The notes under the pieces are model-generated. The model did no database searches, was not told the DNA's origin, and saw only the letters and a list, made by a program, of their open reading frames with translations. A DNA stretch of 44,634 nucleotides from a virus: IMG/VR virus record IMGVR_UViG_3300012685_000004, positions 1 through 44,634 of that record. One strand, 5' to 3'. The stretch's first letter is position 1, and each line of letters starts with the position of its first letter. The translations under genes and the position numbers were made by a program. Positions 4,080-17,882 of the stretch are shown here, in pieces.

Positions 4080-4717
4080 GGCCGGGCCTCCTTCAATCGT
4101 TCCACCAAACGCAACACGGTGACGGACTGCCACGCCTTGCCGCGCAGCGGCTTGACGCCTTGCGCATTCAGGAACGCGGCGATGCGCCGCGACGATAGAT
4201 TGATGACCGGCGCGACGACCTCGCGCAAGCTTTCGGCGAAGGCGTCGGCCTCGGTGCGATTGGTGGCCGCTTGCTTGGCGTTGCCCAAGGTCACGCCGCG
4301 CGCCTTGGCCGCGCGCAACGCGTCTTTGGTCCGCTGCGAAATCATCCGCCGCTCTTTTTCGGCGAGCGCGGCATAGATGTGCAGCATGAACGGGTCGCAA
4401 TCCGCGCCAAGCTCGGCAACGATGAATGGCACGCGCTGCGCCATCAATCCGGCGATGAAAGCGACATCGCGCGAAAGCCGGTCCAGCTTGGCGACGATGA
4501 CCGGACATTTAAGTTTTTTGGCTTGGGCTAGTGCTGCGGCAAGTTGCGGACGCGTGGCAAGTGCATCCGATCCCTTGCCGGTTTCGATTTCGATAAACTC
4601 ACCCGCAATCGCCATGCCTTCCGTTTCCGCAAACCGCGTGATCGCCGCGCGCTGCGCTTCCAAACCTAGACCTGAGCGGCCTTGGCGTTGTGTCGAGACC
4701 CGATAGTAGACAATCAT
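4076..4717 (-). CDS. small serine recombinase (resolvase/invertase family), 213 aa
   Basis: Catalytic domain with the nucleophile serine at residue 8 (YYRVSTQRQ) and the arginine pair in AKLDRLSRD (residues 80 and 83). A long helix ([11 protein letters not shown]) follows, then a C-terminal helix-turn-helix-like region ([17 protein letters not shown]). The size is that of resolvases and invertases, not of phage integrases. It overlaps the upstream HTH gene by ATGA. Possible jobs are dimer resolution of a circular genome, inversion of a segment, or mobilising the island. No crossover site with flanking inverted repeats was found by eye. Confidence 0.85.
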
Positions 4718-4941
4718 CGCACAAACCCCAAATCTTGCGGTGTGATCCCGCGCGCGATCATCAGGTTAAGCAGCAATTCCACCGCATAGGGGATGGTGCC
4801 GCCCGCAACATAGCGGCGCGAGGTGCGATCGCCGATCTTGAGAAACCGCGCCGCGCCAACTTGGGTTAGGCCGAGTTCATTAATCGCGGCTTGGTATTGC
4901 GTGGCAGTCATGCGCCGCGCCGTCTTTTTAGTAGTCGCCAT
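4714..4941 (-). CDS. small HTH regulator, Aca-like candidate, 75 aa
   Basis: A 75-residue protein with a helix-turn-helix at about residues 25-45 ([20 protein letters not shown]) and a basic N-terminal arm. It is of the type common in alphaproteobacterial mobile elements. Its promoter carries two abutting type A dyads, so it may repress itself, and by extension the other island promoters that carry the same dyad. The size, the first-gene position in its unit and the nearby anti-restriction-like gene recall Aca regulators. That link is an inference from architecture, not from sequence similarity. The ribosome site is GAGAGGGG upstream. Confidence 0.75.
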
Positions 4942-4974
4942 TAAAACCCCTCTCTATCGGTCTAGCAACGGTCA

Positions 4975-5012
4975 GCATTAGGCCATTTTGACCGCTAGGG
5001 CAATATGGCCGG
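4975..5012 (-). promoter_or_regulatory. leftward promoter of HTH operon with two type A operators
   Basis: On the minus strand: -35 TTGCCC (4998-5003), 17-base spacer, -10 TAATGC (4975-4980). Two directly abutting 17-bp sites cover it: TAGGCCATTTTGACCGC at 4979-4995 and TAGGGCAATATGGCCGG at 4996-5012. The first lies mainly in the spacer and the second over the -35, as expected for a repressor site. Confidence 0.65.
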
Positions 5013-5016
5013 ACAA

Positions 5017-5045
5017 GAAAAAAGCCCGCCGGAAGGGCGGGCTTT
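5017..5045 (-). terminator. leftward terminator
   Basis: Ten-bp stem AAAGCCCGCC / GGCGGGCTTT (5021-5045). On the minus strand it is followed by TTTTTTCTTGTCC. It ends the unit of the zinc-motif gene and abuts the next promoter. Confidence 0.85.
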
Positions 5046-5065
5046 GTGTGGCAGGGCCGGGCCGG

Positions 5066-5278
5066 TTAGTGGCTGGCAATCGCCGCGATCTTGTGCCGGT
5101 TATAGGTCCGGTTGCGGTAAATCTGCGTTGTGGATTGCTTGCCGGTGCCACGGCAGGAAAAGCAGGTGCCGGACTTTGAGGCTTTGCCGTTCACAATCGC
5201 GCCCCATGAATAGGAACCGGTGCCGCGACACTTGCCGCAGGTTCCGGGTTTGGCGTTTTCGTGGGCTAGATCATACAT
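5066..5278 (-). CDS. double CxxCxGxG zinc-motif protein, 70 aa
   Basis: Two DnaJ-type zinc knuckles: CGKCRGTGSY near residue 14 and CFSCRGTGKQ near residue 39. Together they could bind one zinc ion; the rest is short and basic (RNRTYNRHK). Similar lone zinc ribbons occur in phage accessory regions. The start at 5278 follows GAGCAAGGGGAAC. It is a one-gene transcription unit with its own promoter and terminator. Confidence 0.75.
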   Translation of the reverse strand: MYDLAHENAKPGTCGKCRGTGSYSWGAIVNGKASKSGTCFSCRGTGKQSTTQIYRNRTYNRHKIAAIASH

Positions 5279-5310
5279 TTTCAGTTCCCCTTGCTCGGTT
5301 TCGATGGCTG

Positions 5311-5364
5311 GTGATAGCCAATAAATTTGGATGCTGTCAATATGGCCTAGACCAAAATGGCAAA
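5311..5364 (-). promoter_or_regulatory. leftward promoter with type B spacer site and type A sites
   Basis: Minus strand: -35 TTGACA (5335-5340), 18-base spacer, -10 TATCAC (5311-5316). The spacer holds a type B dyad (plus strand CCAATAAATTTGG, 5318-5330). Type A-like sites overlap and precede the -35: 5333-5349 (GCTGTCAATATGGCCTA) and 5348-5364 (TAGACCAAAATGGCAAA). Confidence 0.65.
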
Positions 5365-5376
5365 ATATTTTCAAAT

Positions 5377-5402
5377 AAAAAACCCGGCCTAAGCCGGGCT
5401 TT
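5377..5402 (-). terminator. leftward terminator
   Basis: Stem CCCGGC / GCCGGG with A/T extension (5382-5402), followed on the minus strand by TTTTTTATTTG. It ends the one-gene unit of 5424-5795. Confidence 0.85.
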
Positions 5403-5423
5403 TCGTGGCGATGGGTGCGGCGG

Positions 5424-5795
5424 TTAGCGGAATTCAAACACCCGACAAGGGATGTCAAAATAAACGCCGTTATTGGCGCGGTGCTCGTTATGGTGGAAAA
5501 ACCATGCCGAACCCGGTAGCGTTTCGCCGGTATCGTGCAGCCGCGCGCGTGGTATGGCGGGATCAAGCCCGCCGCTGTAGTCCATATAACCCTTGCCGAA
5601 ATAAAAACTGCCAAAGCCATAGTTAGGCGAGTTGGTTTGAAGGTCATCGCCCCAATTATGGGTAAAGCGGCGCATGCTGGTATCTGGCATGCGGCACCAA
5701 TCGCCGACCCGCGCGCCTTCCACACGATCCCAAATAGCTTGGCGGATCGCCAAAATTTCGCGGTCGCGTTCATCAAGCTCCGATGTATTTGTCAT
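5424..5795 (-). CDS. hypothetical protein, 123 aa
   Basis: Not recognised. The N-terminus is helical and charged (SELDERDREILAIRQAIWDR). The middle and end are rich in aromatic residues, glycine, histidine and asparagine (PNYGFGSFYFGKGYMDYSGG; SAWFFHHNEHRANNG), suggesting a compact beta-rich fold. The start 5795 follows CAGCAAGGGGAAATT. It is a stand-alone unit in the island with its own promoter, type A operator and terminator, so it is a candidate for independent, early, strong expression. Confidence 0.7.
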   Translation of the reverse strand: MTNTSELDERDREILAIRQAIWDRVEGARVGDWCRMPDTSMRRFTHNWGDDLQTNSPNYGFGSFYFGKGYMDYSGGLDPAIPRARLHDTGETLPGSAWFFHHNEHRANNGVYFDIPCRVFEFR

Positions 5796-5831
5796 AATTT
5801 CCCCTTGCTGGCGCGTGATTGCGCTGGCTCG

Positions 5832-5873
5832 GGCATAGGCCATTTTGGCCGTTAGGTCAACCAAGGAATTTGG
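5832..5873 (-). promoter_or_regulatory. leftward promoter with type A operator in spacer
   Basis: Minus strand: -35 TTGACC (5855-5860), 17-base spacer containing GGCCAAAATGGCC, -10 TATGCC (5832-5837). The type A site spans 5836-5852 (TAGGCCATTTTGGCCGT). A weak type B site (CCAAGGAATTTGG, 5861-5873) lies just upstream of the -35. This is the clearest example of the island promoter layout. Confidence 0.7.
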
Positions 5874-5877
5874 ACAA

Positions 5878-5904
5878 AAGAAAAACCCGCCTAATGGCGG
5901 GTTT
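5878..5904 (-). terminator. leftward terminator of ArdC unit
   Basis: Stem AAACCCGCC / GGCGGGTTT (5883-5904) with loop TAAT, then TTTTTCTTTTG on the minus strand. The hairpin contains the stop codon of the 37-residue gene. Confidence 0.85.
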
Positions 5905-6004
5905 CCTTTTGTGCTTCGCTCATGATCTTGAGCATTTCTTTTAGGAGGCTGATTAGCTTTTCGAGATCCGCAATCCGTTTTCTGATTTGCGCTTGCGTCC
6001 TCAT
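5891..6004 (-). CDS. short coiled-coil protein, 37 aa
   Basis: Starts at ATG 6004, overlapping the stop of the ArdC-like gene (ATGA), and ends at TAG 5891-5893 inside the terminator hairpin. The sequence is a single amphipathic helix (RIADLEKLISLLKEMLKIMS) with leucine/isoleucine spacing of a coiled coil. Coupled translation with the ArdC-like protein suggests a partner or accessory subunit; this is inference. Confidence 0.6.
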   Translation of the reverse strand: MRTQAQIRKRIADLEKLISLLKEMLKIMSEAQKETRH

Positions 6005-6888
6005 GCCGCCTCGCGGATCGGTTCGGCAAGCACGGCGCTGCGCAGGAAATCAGCGGCTTTCTGTGCGGCGCTGGCGGCGGTGAAGAACGCCTTGGCGTCA
6101 TCCTTGAGCAGCGCAATCCAGTTGCCGACATATTCGGCATGCTGCAACGCGCCGTCGATGTTGAATTCGGCGCACAAAAAGGCCGATGTCAACTCCGCCA
6201 CCAATTCTTCCGCCGCATAGGCGCGGTCGCCAAACCGTTTGCCGAATTGCCGGTCAAGGCGCGTGCCGTGGCCGGTCCAGTGTCCCAACTCATGAAACGC
6301 GGTTGAATAGTACAGCGCGGCCGATTTGAACGAGGCAAATTCGGGCATCGCCACGAAATCGTCAAAGCCACCACGGTAGAAAGCGCGGTCACCGCCGGTT
6401 TCGGAATAGTTCGCGCCCGTCGCGGCGATGAATTCGTCGATGGTCGCATCGCGGTCGTCGGTATGATTGAGCTTGATTTCCGGCGTTTCGAACGCGGAGG
6501 CGGGCAGGCCGTCGCACTGATCCACATTGAACACGGTAAAAAATTTCATCGTGCTAAAGGCGCGGCCTTCCTGATCTGTCGCGCCTTCCTTTGGCTTGGA
6601 AACGAGTTGCAAGACCTTGCAAATCTGGAAACCGTGTTCGCCTTTGCGGACATGCCCGCCAAGGTCCATTGCCTGCTTATAGGTGACATAATGCGGCGTC
6701 TTGAAGCGGCCGACATTGCCCCACAGCAGCACGGCGTTAACGCCTTGATAGGCCTTGCCGCTGATGACGTTGAGCGGGACGTTGCGGCCAGCGGTCGCGG
6801 ACCATGGCTTGACCCATGGCGCAACGCCGGCTTCAAGCGATTGCAGGATGCGGGCGGTGACTTCGGCGTGCAGATTAACGGTTGCCAT
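6001..6888 (-). CDS. ArdC-like anti-restriction metalloprotein, 295 aa
   Basis: The N-terminal ArdC/DUF1738-type domain (about residues 5-125, with APWVKPWS near 23 and KAYQGVNAVLLW near 45) is followed by a zincin-like domain with HELGH at residues 199-203 and a helix carrying glutamates near 228, which would complete a zinc site. ArdC proteins, known from plasmids and some phages, bind single-stranded DNA and can protect incoming DNA from restriction. The start 6888 follows CAGCAAGGGGAAAACC; the 10 extra upstream codons are rejected. It is the longest gene of the island, and its upstream region is unusually long (6889-7435). Confidence 0.85.
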   Translation of the reverse strand: MATVNLHAEVTARILQSLEAGVAPWVKPWSATAGRNVPLNVISGKAYQGVNAVLLWGNVGRFKTPHYVTYKQAMDLGGHVRKGEHGFQICKVLQLVSKPKEGATDQEGRAFSTMKFFTVFNVDQCDGLPASAFETPEIKLNHTDDRDATIDEFIAATGANYSETGGDRAFYRGGFDDFVAMPEFASFKSAALYYSTAFHELGHWTGHGTRLDRQFGKRFGDRAYAAEELVAELTSAFLCAEFNIDGALQHAEYVGNWIALLKDDAKAFFTAASAAQKAADFLRSAVLAEPIREAA

Positions 6889-6923
6889 TTGGTTTTCCCC
6901 TTGCTGGCGTTTCAACAATTCTT

Positions 6924-6985
6924 GAGTTAGGCCAAAGCGGCCTATGGGTCAAGATGGCCTAAGCAGGGATCGCCAAAACATTTGG
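6924..6985 (-). promoter_or_regulatory. proximal leftward promoter of ArdC unit
   Basis: Minus strand: -35 TTGACC (6947-6952), 17-base spacer, -10 TAACTC (6924-6929). Two abutting type A sites occur: 6928-6944 (TAGGCCAAAGCGGCCTA, perfect 6-bp arms) and 6945-6961 (TGGGTCAAGATGGCCTA). A type B site (CCAAAACATTTGG, 6973-6985) lies upstream. Confidence 0.65.
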
Positions 6986-7040
6986 TCACAAAATGTTACA
7001 GCCGCAAATCAGGTGAAATCGGCTGCACTGAAATCGCCAA

Positions 7041-7386
7041 CGCCAAAATATTTGGTGACAGGGCTTGACACGATAGCAGGCTCGCCAGCGCGTCCAAATT
7101 TCCGCCATACCTGACATCGGTTTTGCAAAAATAACGCACCGGTGACGCTGTAATCGAGCCGAACTATTCGCCAACAATGTCCAAACTTTTTGGAATAATA
7201 TTTCAAATCAGGCCAAAATGGCGCTAGGCCAAATCGGCAGCAAGGTCAAGCGCCAGCGCCAAAATAATTGGTGACAACTGCAAAAAGAGTTTCGGAAATG
7301 ATCTTGACACGATAGCAGGCTCGCCCGTGCGTCCAAATTATTTGGGTACTATGGGTCAAAACCAAAAAAATAACGCATCGGTGGCG
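7041..7386. repeat. imperfect direct repeat with promoter cores
   Basis: Block 1 (7041-7147) and block 2 (7257-7386) share three conserved pieces in the same order. The first is a type B dyad with TGACA (7041-7060, 7257-7276). The second is an exact 23-bp repeat (7064-7086, 7303-7325). The third is AAAATAACGCAYCGGTGRCG (near 7128-7147 and 7367-7386). The exact repeat holds the -10 TATCGT of a leftward promoter, and the -35 TTGGAC follows in both copies (7092-7097, 7331-7336). In block 2 the -35 overlaps a type B site (7333-7345). Confidence 0.75.
7221..7249 (-). promoter_or_regulatory. distal leftward promoter with type A sites
   Basis: Minus strand: -35 TTGACC (7244-7249), 17-base spacer, -10 TAGCGC (7221-7226). 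Type A sites at 7209-7225 (CAGGCCAAAATGGCGCT) and 7225-7241 (TAGGCCAAATCGGCAGC). One of at least four leftward promoters in the region before the ArdC-like gene. Confidence 0.55.
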
Positions 7387-7430
7387 TTCCTATTGCGTGG
7401 TATTTGAATGTAGGTTTTACGGCGTTTTCC

Positions 7431-7463
7431 CAAGAAGAAACCCGGCCCAAAGGGCCGGGTTTC
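7431..7463 (-). terminator. leftward terminator
   Basis: Twelve-bp perfect stem GAAACCCGGCCC / GGGCCGGGTTTC (7437-7463) with a 3-base loop and a TTTCTTCTT tail on the minus strand. It ends the six-gene unit that starts at 8701. Confidence 0.85.
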
Positions 7464-7467
7464 GTTT

Positions 7468-7662
7468 TCAAGGTTTGCGCCAGATCGGTCTGGCCTTGCG
7501 CAGTGTCGCTAATTCACGTTGCAGGCTTTTCCGCTCGCGGTGCGCGTTGGCGTGTGACTTGCTGCCAAGGCGCACCATAGCCCGAATGCGGCGCAACTCG
7601 TGCAAGCCCCAACTGCGCCAACAACGGTATTGGCGCAATTCGTGTCCAATCGGATCGGGCAT
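7468..7662 (-). CDS. basic hypothetical protein, 64 aa
   Basis: Not recognised. It is strongly basic and helical (LRRIRAMVRLGSKSHANAHR) and could bind nucleic acid. Its ATG (7662-7660) directly follows the stop of the 22-residue membrane peptide (TGAATG), which supports coupled translation. Last gene of the unit. Confidence 0.55.
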   Translation of the reverse strand: MPDPIGHELRQYRCWRSWGLHELRRIRAMVRLGSKSHANAHRERKSLQRELATLRKARPIWRKP

Positions 7663-7731
7663 TCAGATCAGACACGCGACGATAAGCGTGCCGCAAGCGG
7701 CAATGATGACGAAGAAAACAAAATCGGTCAT
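7663..7731 (-). CDS. membrane peptide, 22 aa
   Basis: Very short frame between two genes. ATG at 7731 overlaps the upstream stop (ATGA), with TGGAG as ribosome site, and the stop abuts the next ATG. The product is one hydrophobic helix starting MTDFVFFVIIAACGTLIV. The junctions on both sides match those of real genes in this phage. Function unknown. Confidence 0.45.
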   Translation of the reverse strand: MTDFVFFVIIAACGTLIVACLI

Positions 7732-7901
7732 AGCTCCATTTCCGTTTGAGTGTGCGCGTCGCCAAACAATCCGAGATCACATGGCGCTTGCGCGGTTTTG
7801 GGTTTGAGTGGCTGATCAGCCTTGCGCTGCAAGGCGAGGTCTTGCCGGGCTTCACAGCCCGGCAAGCCGGTTTGGCTAAAACGGGATGGTTGCGAGCGCA
7901 T
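7728..7901 (-). CDS. hypothetical protein, 57 aa
   Basis: Not recognised. The C-terminal half looks disordered and ends with an acidic/amphipathic motif (CDLGLFGDAHTQTEMEL) of the kind used to bind protein partners. The start is uncertain: ATG 7901 overlaps the upstream gene by 26 bases, while the frame stays open to 7976. The stop overlaps the next start (ATGA). Confidence 0.5.
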   Translation of the reverse strand: MRSQPSRFSQTGLPGCEARQDLALQRKADQPLKPKTAQAPCDLGLFGDAHTQTEMEL

Positions 7902-8169
7902 AGCGCGTTGCTTCCCGTTGTTCTTCCTTGGCGAGATCGAACGCCACGGGCGCGAACGCGAAATCGGATTTTGCATTGACGCAAGCCGATTTGAATTGCG
8001 CGCTAGCGCGGTAAACCGCTTGCTGCCAAGCGGTCATGTGCTGATAGCCGCGCGCCTTGTCATAGGCGGATGACGTGGCATAGACCTTATGCGTTCCGCC
8101 GCATCCCGCGCGCTGGTAGCGGTCGCGCGCGACATGCTGCAATTCGTGCATGGCGTTAGCGTCAAACAT
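7876..8169 (-). CDS. hypothetical protein, 97 aa
   Basis: Not recognised. The first third reads MFDANAMHELQHVARDRYQR and carries a histidine/glutamate pair, followed by a glycine/cysteine turn and a long amphipathic part (WQQAVYRASAQFKSACVNAK). The start overlaps the previous stop by 8 bases, typical of this unit. HELQH is HExxH-like, but the rest gives no sign of a metallopeptidase domain, so no activity is claimed. Confidence 0.6.
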   Translation of the reverse strand: MFDANAMHELQHVARDRYQRAGCGGTHKVYATSSAYDKARGYQHMTAWQQAVYRASAQFKSACVNAKSDFAFAPVAFDLAKEEQREATRYALATIPF

Positions 8170-8359
8170 AGATCAAGTTTCCGTCGATGAATTGGAAGCG
8201 CTCCGTGACCGTGATAATCCAAAGCTTGCCGGTCTGGCGAATGCGCGGGCGCTCGCCCTCGCAAACGTCGCCAGCGGCGAACATATTGAAGAGCGCGTTT
8301 TCAGCGCGCTCCGCGCTGGTGTACCAAGCGATTTCATTTTCCTGTTCGATGTAGGCCAT
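8162..8359 (-). CDS. hypothetical protein, 65 aa
   Basis: Small acidic/aromatic protein (MAYIEQENEIAWYTSAERAE) ending in a beta-strand-like segment (LWIITVTERFQFIDGNLIYV). It could be a small SH3- or OB-like fold. The start 8359 follows GAGCAAGGGGAAATTGC, and a structured hairpin precedes that leader (8407-8437). Function unknown. Confidence 0.65.
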   Translation of the reverse strand: MAYIEQENEIAWYTSAERAENALFNMFAAGDVCEGERPRIRQTGKLWIITVTERFQFIDGNLIYV

Positions 8360-8406
8360 TGCAATTTCCCCTTGCTCGGAGCGGCATGATTGCCCTCCTA
8401 ATGCCT

Positions 8407-8437
8407 TAGGCCCGGTACGCTTGCGCGGCCGGGCATA
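8407..8437 (-). promoter_or_regulatory. structured intergenic hairpin, copy 3 (GNRA loop)
   Basis: On the minus strand: a 9-bp outer stem with one mismatch, a one-base bulge (C) opposite UA, a 3-bp inner stem CGC/GCG and loop GCAA. Followed by AGGCATTAG and then the GCAAGGGGAA leader of the next gene. It has no U-tract, so it is not a terminator. Same length and plan as copies at 9167-9197 and 9416-9446. Confidence 0.65.
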
Positions 8438-8455
8438 AGAGCAATTTGCGTTAGG

Positions 8456-8701
8456 TCAGACTGAAAACGGATTTGGCAGCGCGATGGCGCGGAGTGTCTG
8501 GGCAATCTGCGCATTGACGGTTTCCAACTGCTTGGAAATGTCGCGGAGCGTCGCGCCGCGAAGTGTCCGGCCGGAATGACCGGGAATGCTGCCAGCGATG
8601 GCCAGCCAACCCTTGCCATCGCGGCGAATACGCCAAGTGCCGGTTGCGTGCCCGACATATTCGCCTTTGCGGAACGCGCTCTTTTCGATGTTCTGATACA
8701 T
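8456..8701 (-). CDS. hypothetical protein, 81 aa
   Basis: Not recognised. The N-terminal part looks beta-rich (GEYVGHATGTWRIRRDGKGW, then LAIAGSIPG) and the C-terminal part helical (LRDISKQLETVNAQIAQTLR). First gene of a six-gene leftward unit. The start 8701 follows CGCCAGCAAGGGGAAATCC. An overlapping frame (8451-8750) is a shadow. Confidence 0.65.
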   Translation of the reverse strand: MYQNIEKSAFRKGEYVGHATGTWRIRRDGKGWLAIAGSIPGHSGRTLRGATLRDISKQLETVNAQIAQTLRAIALPNPFSV

Positions 8702-8740
8702 TCGGATTTCCCCTTGCTGGCGCGGGATTGCGCCTTGGCT

Positions 8741-8778
8741 GGTGTTCCAAATTATTTGGCGTAGGTCAAGATGGCCTA
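8741..8778 (-). promoter_or_regulatory. leftward promoter with type B spacer site and type A site
   Basis: Minus strand: -35 TTGACC (8764-8769), then a 17-base spacer filled by a perfect type B dyad (CCAAATTATTTGG, 8747-8759), then a poor -10 AACACC (8741-8746). A type A site (TAGGTCAAGATGGCCTA, 8762-8778) overlaps the -35. Confidence 0.55.
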
Positions 8779-8807
8779 GTGCCGATTTGTGAAATTATTT
8801 TTGGACA

Positions 8808-8834
8808 AGAAAAAACCCGCTTCGCAGCGGGTTT
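8808..8834 (-). terminator. leftward terminator
   Basis: Stem AAACCCGCT / AGCGGGTTT (8813-8834), tight loop TCGC, and TTTTTTCTTGTCC on the minus strand. It ends the three-gene unit from 9661. Confidence 0.85.
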
Positions 8835-8859
8835 GATCTAGAGGCGATTTAGATCGGGA

Positions 8860-9117
8860 TCAGAGGAAAGCAATTCGGCTGTCATCAGGGAAAGTGTGCG
8901 ATCCGTCGGGTTCGGTGGTTCGGATCAGGCCAATCGACTTTCCCGGTGCAACGTCGTTTGCCTCAAGATATCGAAAGCCCTTGTAGGCGTTGGCTTTCAT
9001 CAGCAAATCGCCAACGAAATATTGCACCGCTGCACGCTGCGCTGCCATTTCATCGGCGCTGCCACGGAACAAGGCGTTAGCGCTGGCTTTGATGGTTTCG
9101 ATCTTGATCGTTTTCAT
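8860..9117 (-). CDS. hypothetical protein, 85 aa
   Basis: Not recognised. An amphipathic helical N-terminus (MKTIKIETIKASANALFRGS) and a middle helix (EMAAQRAAVQYFVGDLLMKA) are followed by a loop-rich end (TTEPDGSHTFPDDSRIAFL). The start 9117 follows GCAAGGGGAACCAAA. Third gene of the unit; a GNRA hairpin (9167-9197) precedes it. Confidence 0.65.
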   Translation of the reverse strand: MKTIKIETIKASANALFRGSADEMAAQRAAVQYFVGDLLMKANAYKGFRYLEANDVAPGKSIGLIRTTEPDGSHTFPDDSRIAFL

Positions 9118-9166
9118 TTTGGTTCCCCTTGCGAGCGACGCGACATCGCGGCGCTTCTAATGCCTT

Positions 9167-9197
9167 ATGCCCGGTAAGCGTTTCCGCTGCCGGGCAT
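9167..9197 (-). promoter_or_regulatory. structured intergenic hairpin, copy 2 (GNRA loop)
   Basis: Minus strand: 8-bp outer stem ATGCCCGG/CCGGGCAT, bulged C opposite UA, 4-bp inner stem AGCG/CGCT, loop GAAA. Flanks CATCGCTTTC upstream and AGGCATTAGAAGCGC downstream are shared with copy 1. It lies between the 52-residue gene's stop and the leader of the 85-residue gene. Confidence 0.7.
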
Positions 9198-9217
9198 GAA
9201 AGCGATGTTGATGGGGC

Positions 9218-9376
9218 CTAGCCTTTGTTCGCCTGATGGATTGCATCAGCGAGCAAGTCATAATCTTCGCGCTCGAACATGCAGCGCGCCATTGGATGCG
9301 CGCGGTCATAGGCCCTAAGCTTTTGAGCGTTCTTGAGTGTCGGAGCGGTGCGGTAGGCGTGCATCAGCTTGTTCAT
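9218..9376 (-). CDS. hypothetical protein, 52 aa
   Basis: Short helical protein (MNKLMHAYRTAPTLKNAQKL; then REDYDLLADAIHQANKG). The start 9376 follows GCAAGGGGAACCAAA, the same leader as its neighbours. It is flanked by GNRA hairpins on both sides. Function unknown. Confidence 0.65.
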   Translation of the reverse strand: MNKLMHAYRTAPTLKNAQKLRAYDRAHPMARCMFEREDYDLLADAIHQANKG

Positions 9377-9415
9377 TTTGGTTCCCCTTGCGAAGCGGAG
9401 CGCTTCTAATGCCTC

Positions 9416-9446
9416 AAGCCGGGTAAAGCTTGCGCTTGCCCGGCTT
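9416..9446 (-). promoter_or_regulatory. structured intergenic hairpin, copy 1 (GNRA loop)
   Basis: Minus strand: 8-bp outer stem AAGCCGGG/CCCGGCTT, bulged C opposite UA, 4-bp inner stem AAGC/GCTT, loop GCAA. Compared with copies 2 and 3, most base pairs differ in sequence but keep pairing. Confidence 0.7.
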
Positions 9447-9466
9447 GAAAGCGATGTAGCTGCGGG

Positions 9467-9661
9467 TTAGTCCGGATATTTCACTTCGGACCAATCATCA
9501 GCGCGAATTCGGTCGCCATAGTAGGCATCCAGTTCGATGGCTTCGGGATATTGCGCGGTGAACCAATCGCGGTTGGTGGCGTTGGCGATGCCTGCGCATT
9601 TGAGGACCATGCCGCTATAGAAGGCTATCGGCAGGTAGAAGTAGCGGTTTGCGGTGTTCAT
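9467..9661 (-). CDS. hypothetical protein, 64 aa
   Basis: Starts MNTANRYFYLPIAFYSGMVL, a hydrophobic, aromatic N-terminus; the C-terminus is acidic and rich in Tyr and Asp (ELDAYYGDRIRADDWSEVKY). Negatively charged DNA-mimic-like small proteins are common among anti-defence proteins, but nothing here proves that role. First gene of a three-gene unit; leader CGCAAGGGGAATTCGAA. Confidence 0.65.
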   Translation of the reverse strand: MNTANRYFYLPIAFYSGMVLKCAGIANATNRDWFTAQYPEAIELDAYYGDRIRADDWSEVKYPD

Positions 9662-9707
9662 TTCGAATTCCCCTTGCGTTGCGGTGCGGATTTGCGCCGT
9701 TCAAAAT

Positions 9708-9737
9708 CCCATAGGCCAATTTGGCCTAGTCTGTCAA
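9708..9737 (-). promoter_or_regulatory. leftward promoter with near-perfect type A operator
   Basis: Minus strand: -35 TTGACA (9732-9737), 18-base spacer, -10 TATGGG (9708-9713). TAGGCCAATTTGGCCTA (9712-9728) is symmetrical except at its centre and fills the spacer. The divergent gene at 9748 starts only 10 bases beyond, so a repressor here could affect both directions. Confidence 0.7.
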
Positions 9738-9747
9738 GAGGGCACGA

Positions 9748-9933
9748 ATGAAGAAAAATCGAGTGGTCGAATTCACGCGGAACTTGCGCAATGGCGACGT
9801 TGTGCAGGCCAGCGAACGGGACAGGGAACTAGACCGGAAGGCGCTGCGCCGCGCGGTCAAGCACAAGGCCAAGGTGACGCTGATCCGCCGCGTTGCCAAG
9901 CCCGCCCACGCGTCGCCACGGCGTGCAGGCTGA
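9748..9933 (+). CDS. small basic protein, 61 aa
   Basis: Highly basic, helical protein (KALRRAVKHKAKVTLIRRVA), likely nucleic-acid binding. First rightward gene after the island, divergent from the 9661 unit and directly before the small terminase gene. A role in packaging or late control is possible but not shown. The ribosome site is weak (AGAGGGCACGA). Confidence 0.6.
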   Translation: MKKNRVVEFTRNLRNGDVVQASERDRELDRKALRRAVKHKAKVTLIRRVAKPAHASPRRAG

Positions 9934-10447: not shown

Positions 10448-10714
10448 CATGTTGCAGAATGCAAGTTATGCCTGATATCATTGGGTTTCTTGCGCTATGG
10501 GCAGGGGGCGAGGCGCGCGGCCAGCGACCCACGGGAGGGGGAAAATTTCGCGGGCCAAGCATGCTTATCTCGACACCACCCCCCACCAATCCGCCCAACA
10601 TAAAAAGCCGTCCCGTCATTCTCGATGACCACCCACCGTTAGTCTAACGGTTAGTCTAACCCCCACCGCAAAGCCAATCCCCCTTTCGCGGGATTACCAC
10701 CCACGGAACCCGTC
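10448..10714 (+). other. intergenic region after small terminase
   Basis: No supported gene. An open frame at 10459-10647 has no ribosome site and proline-rich, non-protein-like content. The region contains two GTTAGTCTAAC dyads at its 3' end (10638-10648, 10650-10660) just before the next gene. Confidence 0.4.
10638..10660. repeat. two GTTAGTCTAAC dyads, 12-bp period
   Basis: Two exact copies of the 11-bp palindrome GTTAG-T-CTAAC at 10638-10648 and 10650-10660. They are the upstream members of the seven-copy family that flanks the gene at 10715-11059. Confidence 0.9.
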
Positions 10715-11084: not shown

Positions 11085-11153
11085 GTTAGTCTAACATCTG
11101 TTAGTCTAACAAGCACCGGTTAGTCTAACTGTTAGTCTAACCGTTAGACTAAC
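11085..11153. repeat. five GTTAGNCTAAC dyads
   Basis: Copies at 11085-11095, 11100-11110, 11119-11129, 11131-11141 and 11143-11153. The last has the central base inverted (GTTAGACTAAC). The last three have a 12-bp period. Together with 10638 and 10650 this makes seven copies within 516 bp. Confidence 0.9.
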
Positions 11154-11162
11154 GGGGCTCAC

Positions 11163-17072: not shown

Positions 17073-17882
17073 ATGGCAGACCTTGACGAAACCGTGCCCT
17101 TGGGCGCGGATGATGATGCATTGTTTCAACAGGGGGTGACGACGCCGCCGAAAGACGACGAAATCACACCCGCCGATCAAGCCCCACCGCCAGCCACGCC
17201 GCAACCCGCACCCGAACCCGCCGTCCCGGCGGGGCGATTACGCGAGGAAGCCGAAGCGCGGCGCGCGGCGGAACGTGATCGCGATGAGTTTCGGCGGCAG
17301 TTGGATGCGCTGTTACTGCGCCAACCGCCCGCGTCGAAACCGGAAGCTCCCAAGCGCAGCGATTTGTTTGAAGCGCCTTCGGCCTTTGTGCAGGAGGAAA
17401 TCAAGCCGCTGCTCGATCCGCTTGAAAAGCGGAACGCCGCTAGAGACGAGCACTATTCCCTGAAAGATGCCGTGCGTGAGCACGGCAAGGAAAAGGTGTT
17501 CGCGGCCCGCAATGCGCTGCAAAGCGCCATGGGTGCCCGCGATAGCGAAGCTTGGGGTGTCTACAATCGCGCGATGGCATCGATTGATCCTTACGAGGAA
17601 ATCATGCGCTGGCACATCGGCAAAGAGGTGATGACGACGGTGGGCTCCGATCTCGGAGCCTATCGTCAGAAAGTCCTCGATGAAGCGCTCAAAGACCCTG
17701 AGTTTCATAAAAAGGTTTTTGAGGCGGCGCGCGGCACAGCCGCGAGCAATGGCAACAACGTTAATCGTCCCATGGTCCCGAAACTTCCATCCATCGGAAA
17801 AGTCGGAGCCGCTGCGATCCCCGACGGGGAAGACAATCAAAGCGATGAAGAACTTTTCCACGCGGCCACTCGGCGTCGCTAA
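17073..17882 (+). CDS. scaffolding protein, 269 aa
   Basis: Typical scaffold composition: acidic, proline-rich N-terminus, a long coiled-coil (EEAEARRAAERDRDEFRRQL, residues about 62-81), mixed helices, and a C-terminal region with basic end (HAATRRR) that could contact the coat. It sits between portal and capsid, the standard scaffold position, and would guide procapsid assembly and then leave. The 141-bp space before it (16932-17072) has small hairpins only. Confidence 0.75.
   Translation: MADLDETVPLGADDDALFQQGVTTPPKDDEITPADQAPPPATPQPAPEPAVPAGRLREEAEARRAAERDRDEFRRQLDALLLRQPPASKPEAPKRSDLFEAPSAFVQEEIKPLLDPLEKRNAARDEHYSLKDAVREHGKEKVFAARNALQSAMGARDSEAWGVYNRAMASIDPYEEIMRWHIGKEVMTTVGSDLGAYRQKVLDEALKDPEFHKKVFEAARGTAASNGNNVNRPMVPKLPSIGKVGAAAIPDGEDNQSDEELFHAATRRR

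Follow-up and report, generated by a model that had tools for sequence, protein, structure and literature searches.

Why does the same short RNA hairpin stand at three junctions between small genes on one strand of a single virus? The stretch analyzed here (the window) is the IMG/VR virus record IMGVR_UViG_3300012685_000004, 44,634 bases in length. It encodes a Terminase_6C-type large terminase, a P22-like portal, an ArdC anti-restriction protein and a large serine recombinase, and by this gene content its source appears to be a tailed temperate phage. The three hairpin junctions lie on the minus strand, among small ORFs that precede the terminase region and are oriented divergently to it, and comprise the following features, where P1 and P2 are the first and second hairpin of a junction.

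9467..9661, minus strand: 64-aa ORF ending just upstream of copy 1, without PHROGs match
9404..9456, minus strand: element copy 1 (covariance model R1, 73.4 bits, E 2.9e-20; copy included in the model), with flank CATCGC, lower stem, GCCGGG/CCCGGC, C/UA internal loop, AAGC-GCAA-GCTT and linker CATTA(G)
9392..9406, minus strand: P2 hairpin of copy 1 by folding, GAAGCG-CTC-CGCTTC, directly 5' of the Shine-Dalgarno sequence
9382..9391, minus strand: GCAAGGGGAA leader (Shine-Dalgarno) of the gene 3' of copy 1
9218..9376, minus strand: 52-aa ORF between copies 1 and 2, without PHROGs match
9155..9207, minus strand: element copy 2, GCCCGG/CCGGGC and AGCG-GAAA-CGCT (model R1, 71.0 bits, E 1.6e-19; copy included in the model)
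9123..9132, minus strand: GCAAGGGGAA leader of the gene 3' of copy 2
8860..9117, minus strand: 85-aa ORF downstream of copy 2
8813..8834, minus strand: terminator-like hairpin with a T-run at the end of the first unit (copies 1 and 2)
8456..8701, minus strand: 81-aa ORF ending just upstream of copy 3, without PHROGs match
8396..8446, minus strand: element copy 3, GCCCGG/CCGGGC and CGC-GCAA-GCG (model R1, 56.5 bits, E 4.7e-15; unlike copies 1 and 2, not part of the training set)
8366..8375, minus strand: GCAAGGGGAA leader of the gene 3' of copy 3
8162..8359, minus strand: 65-aa ORF downstream of copy 3, overlapping the next start codon, with no element at its end

A sequence-only reading had placed three hairpins at 9416-9446, 9167-9197 and 8407-8437 on the minus strand, and all were found there, each with the C facing UA that it described, with inner stems AAGC/GCTT, AGCG/CGCT and CGC/GCG closed by loops GCAA, GAAA and GCAA, and without a U-tract. 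Its outer stem of 8-9 continuous base pairs does not describe copy 3, where a U.C mismatch separates a stem of 6 bp from a lower stem. Of the flanks that it called conserved, downstream AGGCATTAG is present in all three copies, whereas upstream CATCGCTTTC is found in only two, copy 3 having AATTGCTCTTAT in its place. The hairpins do stand just before the GCAAGGGGAA leader in all three cases, but the same leader also precedes five minus-strand genes that have no hairpin; overall it is common to eight genes (window 5285-9677, minus strand). The proposed 31-nt unit proved too short: conservation extends to the lower stem and flanks, so the functional unit must be longer, and the full motif spans about 53 nt. 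A second short hairpin, between TAG and the Shine-Dalgarno sequence, had been overlooked. A strict scan of the window for the hairpin shape returned three matches on the minus strand, none on the plus strand and none in 40 shuffled windows, while regions of 101-108 nt gave folding z-scores of -3.7, -3.2 and -2.2 against dinucleotide shuffles.

Homologous loci were collected by pattern-seeded scans, and copy totals from them are therefore lower bounds. A 3'-flank pattern retrieved at least 26 stretches in viral contigs, about half of them real. Two flank-blind hairpin patterns, with matches filtered for inner-stem pairing, recovered mostly hairpins with the same flanks, although flanks were required neither by these patterns nor by any other hairpin scan. 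A covariance model built from 27 copies gave at least 140 matches, at least 127 of them distinct once duplicates and one reverse-strand match were removed, in at least 80 loci (about 75 separate contigs). Of the deduplicated matches, 35 fit none of the three initial scan patterns; in some the sole departure is a changed base in the loop or internal loop, and the weakest matches are doubtful, while others show whole-pair changes (GGCTGG/CCAGCC, GCCCCG/CGGGGC, ACCCGG/CCGGGT, GTCCGG/CCGGAC, GCGCCG/CGGCGC).

Carriers are many soil phages, some of them integrated in Bradyrhizobium. They belong to at least three unrelated terminase lineages (phrog_38, phrog_9 and phrog_2-like), thus the element is common to unrelated phages. 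The matches listed from a pattern scan of bacterial genomes were one Hyphomicrobiales MAG, two Bradyrhizobium and one chance match; the model matched 10 of 196 genomes of the genus Bradyrhizobium, in some cases weakly. One locus (L324) is identified as a prophage by a terminase and a ParB-methyltransferase adjoining its four copies. Order- and phylum-wide matches outside this genus (L318-L323) look like terminators or chance hairpins and were set aside. BLAST of 7800-9900 against annotated phages found no match, and consensus queries against the same phages gave short weak matches only, the best of which, in Roseobacter phage CRP-345, falls within a coding gene. The 85-aa ORF has homologues in loci L030 (71%) and L031 (55%), each also downstream of an element.

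The consensus begins with [A/C]ACAUYG and continues through a 5-bp lower stem, a Y·Y mismatch and a 6-bp GCCSGG/CCSGGC stem to an internal loop with C opposite YA, sometimes UU. Above it is an apical stem of 3-6 bp with a GNRA loop, rarely UNCG (UUCG or UACG), and on the 3' side the linker CRNUA is followed by the G of P2. Unpaired positions are strongly conserved: the C in 98% of copies, the 3' side of the internal loop as U/C in 97% and then A in 88%, and, in the single-stranded linker between P1 and P2, U in 91% and A in 90%. The P2 stem has at least 4 bp at 75 of 93 junctions and is missing from some copies (e.g. L061, L292). In a Bradyrhizobium genome, a copy with its apical stem deleted and its flanks and lower stem intact (L271, 6117-6150) adjoins two full copies. 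Specific docking of the GNRA loop was considered and rejected, as some copies carry UUCG or UACG.

Across the full alignment, 95.5% of cells are paired and both sides have changed in 14 of 15 pairs, with a covariation score of 0.491 compared to 0.184 for shuffled and at most 0.121 for slid controls. Pairing in the upper stem is partly imposed by the inner-stem filter; the lower stem was not filtered, and its pairs covary too. Part of the covariation also comes from copies outside the hairpin search patterns. Loci L118 and L206, otherwise near-identical, have 8 differences over 150 nt, four of which are two compensatory pair changes inside the element. G·U outnumbers A·C among element pairs by 114 to 27 (counts that ignore relatedness), and the sense-strand RNA is therefore the selected molecule. 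The view that a selected RNA structure occupies these gene junctions is thus strongly supported; the covariance-model search that the sequence-only reading had proposed, staking itself on homologues in related phages, found them covarying in many phages.

Position relative to genes is equally regular. Among 121 copies with enough flank, a same-strand ORF ends upstream of 118 and starts downstream of 114, and 111 have both co-directional neighbors, compared to 27% of random positions. The stop codon lies 20-22 nt upstream of the GCC stem in 88 of 113 cases (median 21), which puts the base of P1 about 15 nt 3' of it. Stop codons themselves vary (TAA 51, TGA 31, TAG 31) and the C-rich, G-poor spacer that follows is not conserved in sequence; spacing rather than copied sequence thus seems to be held. 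The next start is only loosely placed, about 20-42 nt after the element. Readthrough or bypass was discarded: each inner-stem pair moves the conserved UAG a further 2 nt from the stop, so no frame is kept.

Such strict post-stop placement could also mean that the hairpin insulates translation: it would stop 30S subunits, or ribosomes at termination, from sliding on to the next start, and each gene would initiate at its own Shine-Dalgarno sequence. The held spacing, the C-rich, G-poor spacer and the overlapping gene pair 8162/8169, which lacks an element, agree with this; it leaves the conserved unpaired bases unexplained, and we regard it as doubtful. The variant in which the spacer sequesters the Shine-Dalgarno sequence is unsupported, since their pairing energy equals that of permuted partners.

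Given those unpaired bases, a specific binding protein is conceivable. Such a protein, encoded by phage or host, might read the internal loop and flanks of the RNA as a translational operator and control the next gene at several junctions, as the near-invariant unpaired bases and the several copies per phage would suggest. On the other hand, it is the distance to the upstream stop that is tight and that to the start that is loose, the loop can be UNCG, and downstream genes offer no common RNA-binding protein candidate; an operator is therefore somewhat unlikely, if still a serious contender. Downstream proteins are mostly unrelated ORFans, the few with names being ArdA, ArdC, resolvases and DUFs.

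How far does similarity between junctions extend? In 293 in-register alignments of junctions, 229 are confined to the element and leader, 33 reach into the upstream gene, 25 into the downstream gene and four into both. Because homology between junctions almost always ends at the edges of the element, it marks sites where neighbors change, and judged by these alignments it is a mosaic boundary. The same figures (229 confined, 58 one-sided, four on both sides) speak for a site of recombination at the DNA level, or for the end of a mobile cassette (integron attC-like or PeSL-like), whose RNA folding is incidental. We consider this very unlikely: the G.U versus A.C asymmetry indicates one-strand selection as RNA, stem sequences differ among copies, which disfavors homologous exchange, and flank pairing is 22-34% at all registers, unlike the complementary R''/R' boxes at the base of attC hairpins.

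The element matches no family that we could find. Rfam 15 has no match to the window at gathering thresholds, a relaxed E-value brought up no credible family at the three sites, and a literature search returned no earlier description; it is thus a well-supported RNA family absent from Rfam. Nor is it an intrinsic terminator: the sequence after P1 is YURAGGCRNUAG, and a terminator scan lists none of the three sites. At lambda-type nut sites, an N-like protein brings about readthrough of downstream terminators. A comparable boxA with a boxB-like GNRA hairpin, loading an antitermination complex, is hinted at by TGCTCTTA directly 5' of the hairpin in copy 3, by CGCTCTTA in L017 and by a boxA form within one mismatch in 26 of 127 copies (versus 1 in shuffles). 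With no boxA-like octamer in the other 101 copies, and hence no conserved boxA, with UNCG loops, and with single sites at each junction and a terminator that is intact downstream of copies 1-2, the fit is poor, and this is the least probable of the accounts given here.

In mechanism, the nearest systems are two. The intercistronic hairpins of the Rhodobacter puf operon, reportedly described by Klug et al. in 1987, are said to stabilize the upstream segment. Likened by description only, they too are alphaproteobacterial hairpins after a stop codon between operon genes, at a single chromosomal locus rather than in a repeated mosaic phage family. The RNase III sites R1-R5 of phage T7 early mRNA are irregular internal-loop hairpins between early genes, before ribosome-binding sites. 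Our element is likewise an irregular intercistronic hairpin, but has a shorter stem, strongly conserved unpaired bases and a putative cleavage only.

Among described phage systems, the nearest are ESAS/SAS and PeSLs. In Cluster K mycobacteriophages, ESAS (of the ESAS/SAS pair) is an inverted repeat of 17 bp with a variable spacer, tied to the start codon; many small genes from unrelated families have it directly 5' of a sequence resembling a Shine-Dalgarno, and its function is unknown (PMC3203893, PMC12699233). The scattered gene families that it accompanies suggest that ESAS, too, marks places with changing neighbors. Both are repeated inverted repeats upstream of the start codons of diverse genes (here, 114 of 121 copies). 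In contrast to ESAS, the present element carries an internal loop, is capped by a stable tetraloop, keeps its spacing to the preceding stop, lacks SAS and occurs in Bradyrhizobium-linked phages. The SAS consensus GGGATAGGAGCCC has one 2-mismatch match in the window, at 17642, which is chance level, and no exact match in 326 loci. PeSLs of T4-type phages combine an early promoter with a terminator stem-loop (Arbiol 2010, Comeau 2014; cited in PMC4503421). Like our element, they are small regulatory cassettes placed at gene junctions, where they are reported to mark the shuffling of modules; unlike them, our element shows no promoter or U-tract. A simple scan of 4500-9900 gave no promoter-like match, although alphaproteobacterial promoters may escape such a scan.

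Other features of the window were recorded alongside. Palindromes resembling CCAAATNATTTGG occur 16 times (at most 2 mismatches; 2.5 expected), nine of them within 5318-8759, and two (5318-5340, 8747-8769) lie directly 3' of TTGAC, upstream of GCAAGGGGAA genes; they are likely an operator inside promoters of the minus-strand early units. The long gene-poor stretch at 6960-7400, which contains several palindromes and a pair of similar blocks (GCGAGCCTGCTATCGTGTCAAG), is a candidate control region or replication origin, and L030 has a comparable stretch at 6000-6450. Repeated palindromic GTTAGACTAAC units are found on the minus strand at 11085-11155 and 10635-10665. A 59-aa protein (5102-5278, minus strand) has CXXCXGXG zinc motifs of DnaJ-like type by a weak match to Pfam, is similar to an ORF in L030 (8133 onward) and might bind nucleic acid.

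Our preferred reading, to which we give a rough probability of 0.45, is that of a cis-acting intercistronic mRNA element that would provide each gene with a leader of its own and a stable 3' end, probably by way of a cut in the linker. An element that equips each gene of an early transcript with separate mRNA ends best fits the anatomy, which runs from the stop through P1, linker and P2 to the Shine-Dalgarno sequence. P1 would be placed at the shortest distance from the stop codon at which the terminating ribosome does not melt it, and would act as a barrier to 3' exonucleases. The cut in or near the linker would then be made by an endonuclease, be it RNase E, RNase III or an enzyme of the phage; we infer the cut, the enzyme and the effect on half-life alike. 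The upstream message would keep a stable 3' hairpin, and the downstream message would begin with P2 and carry a ribosome-binding site of its own. Expression and decay would then be independent for each gene of an early transcript, which would allow unrelated genes to be inserted or exchanged at junctions.

In the window, a T-run terminator closes the unit of copies 1 and 2, which suggests that P1 takes the 3'-end role at internal junctions. A plain 3' block would not need the conserved unpaired ACAUYG, C/UA and CRNUAG. RNase E prefers single-stranded RN/WUU (PMC6238624); with A/U required at +1 and U at +2, the linker CAUUAG fits and CAGUAG-type linkers do not. The sequence-only reading had itself offered an mRNA processing or stabilizing element or a protein site, and either may hold: the former fits the place right after stop codons and the two-hairpin layout, the latter the conserved unpaired bases. 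Tentatively, and as a possibility below even odds, the cassette could be recognized by a specific RNA-binding or RNA-cleaving factor and be a common joint for early operons of exchangeable single-gene modules in unrelated Bradyrhizobium-type phages; each such module would then have an independently processed message. The element is a testable case of how phages keep mosaic operons working as neighboring genes change, and its fixed distance from the stop codon suggests that the fate of the mRNA is linked to the termination of translation.
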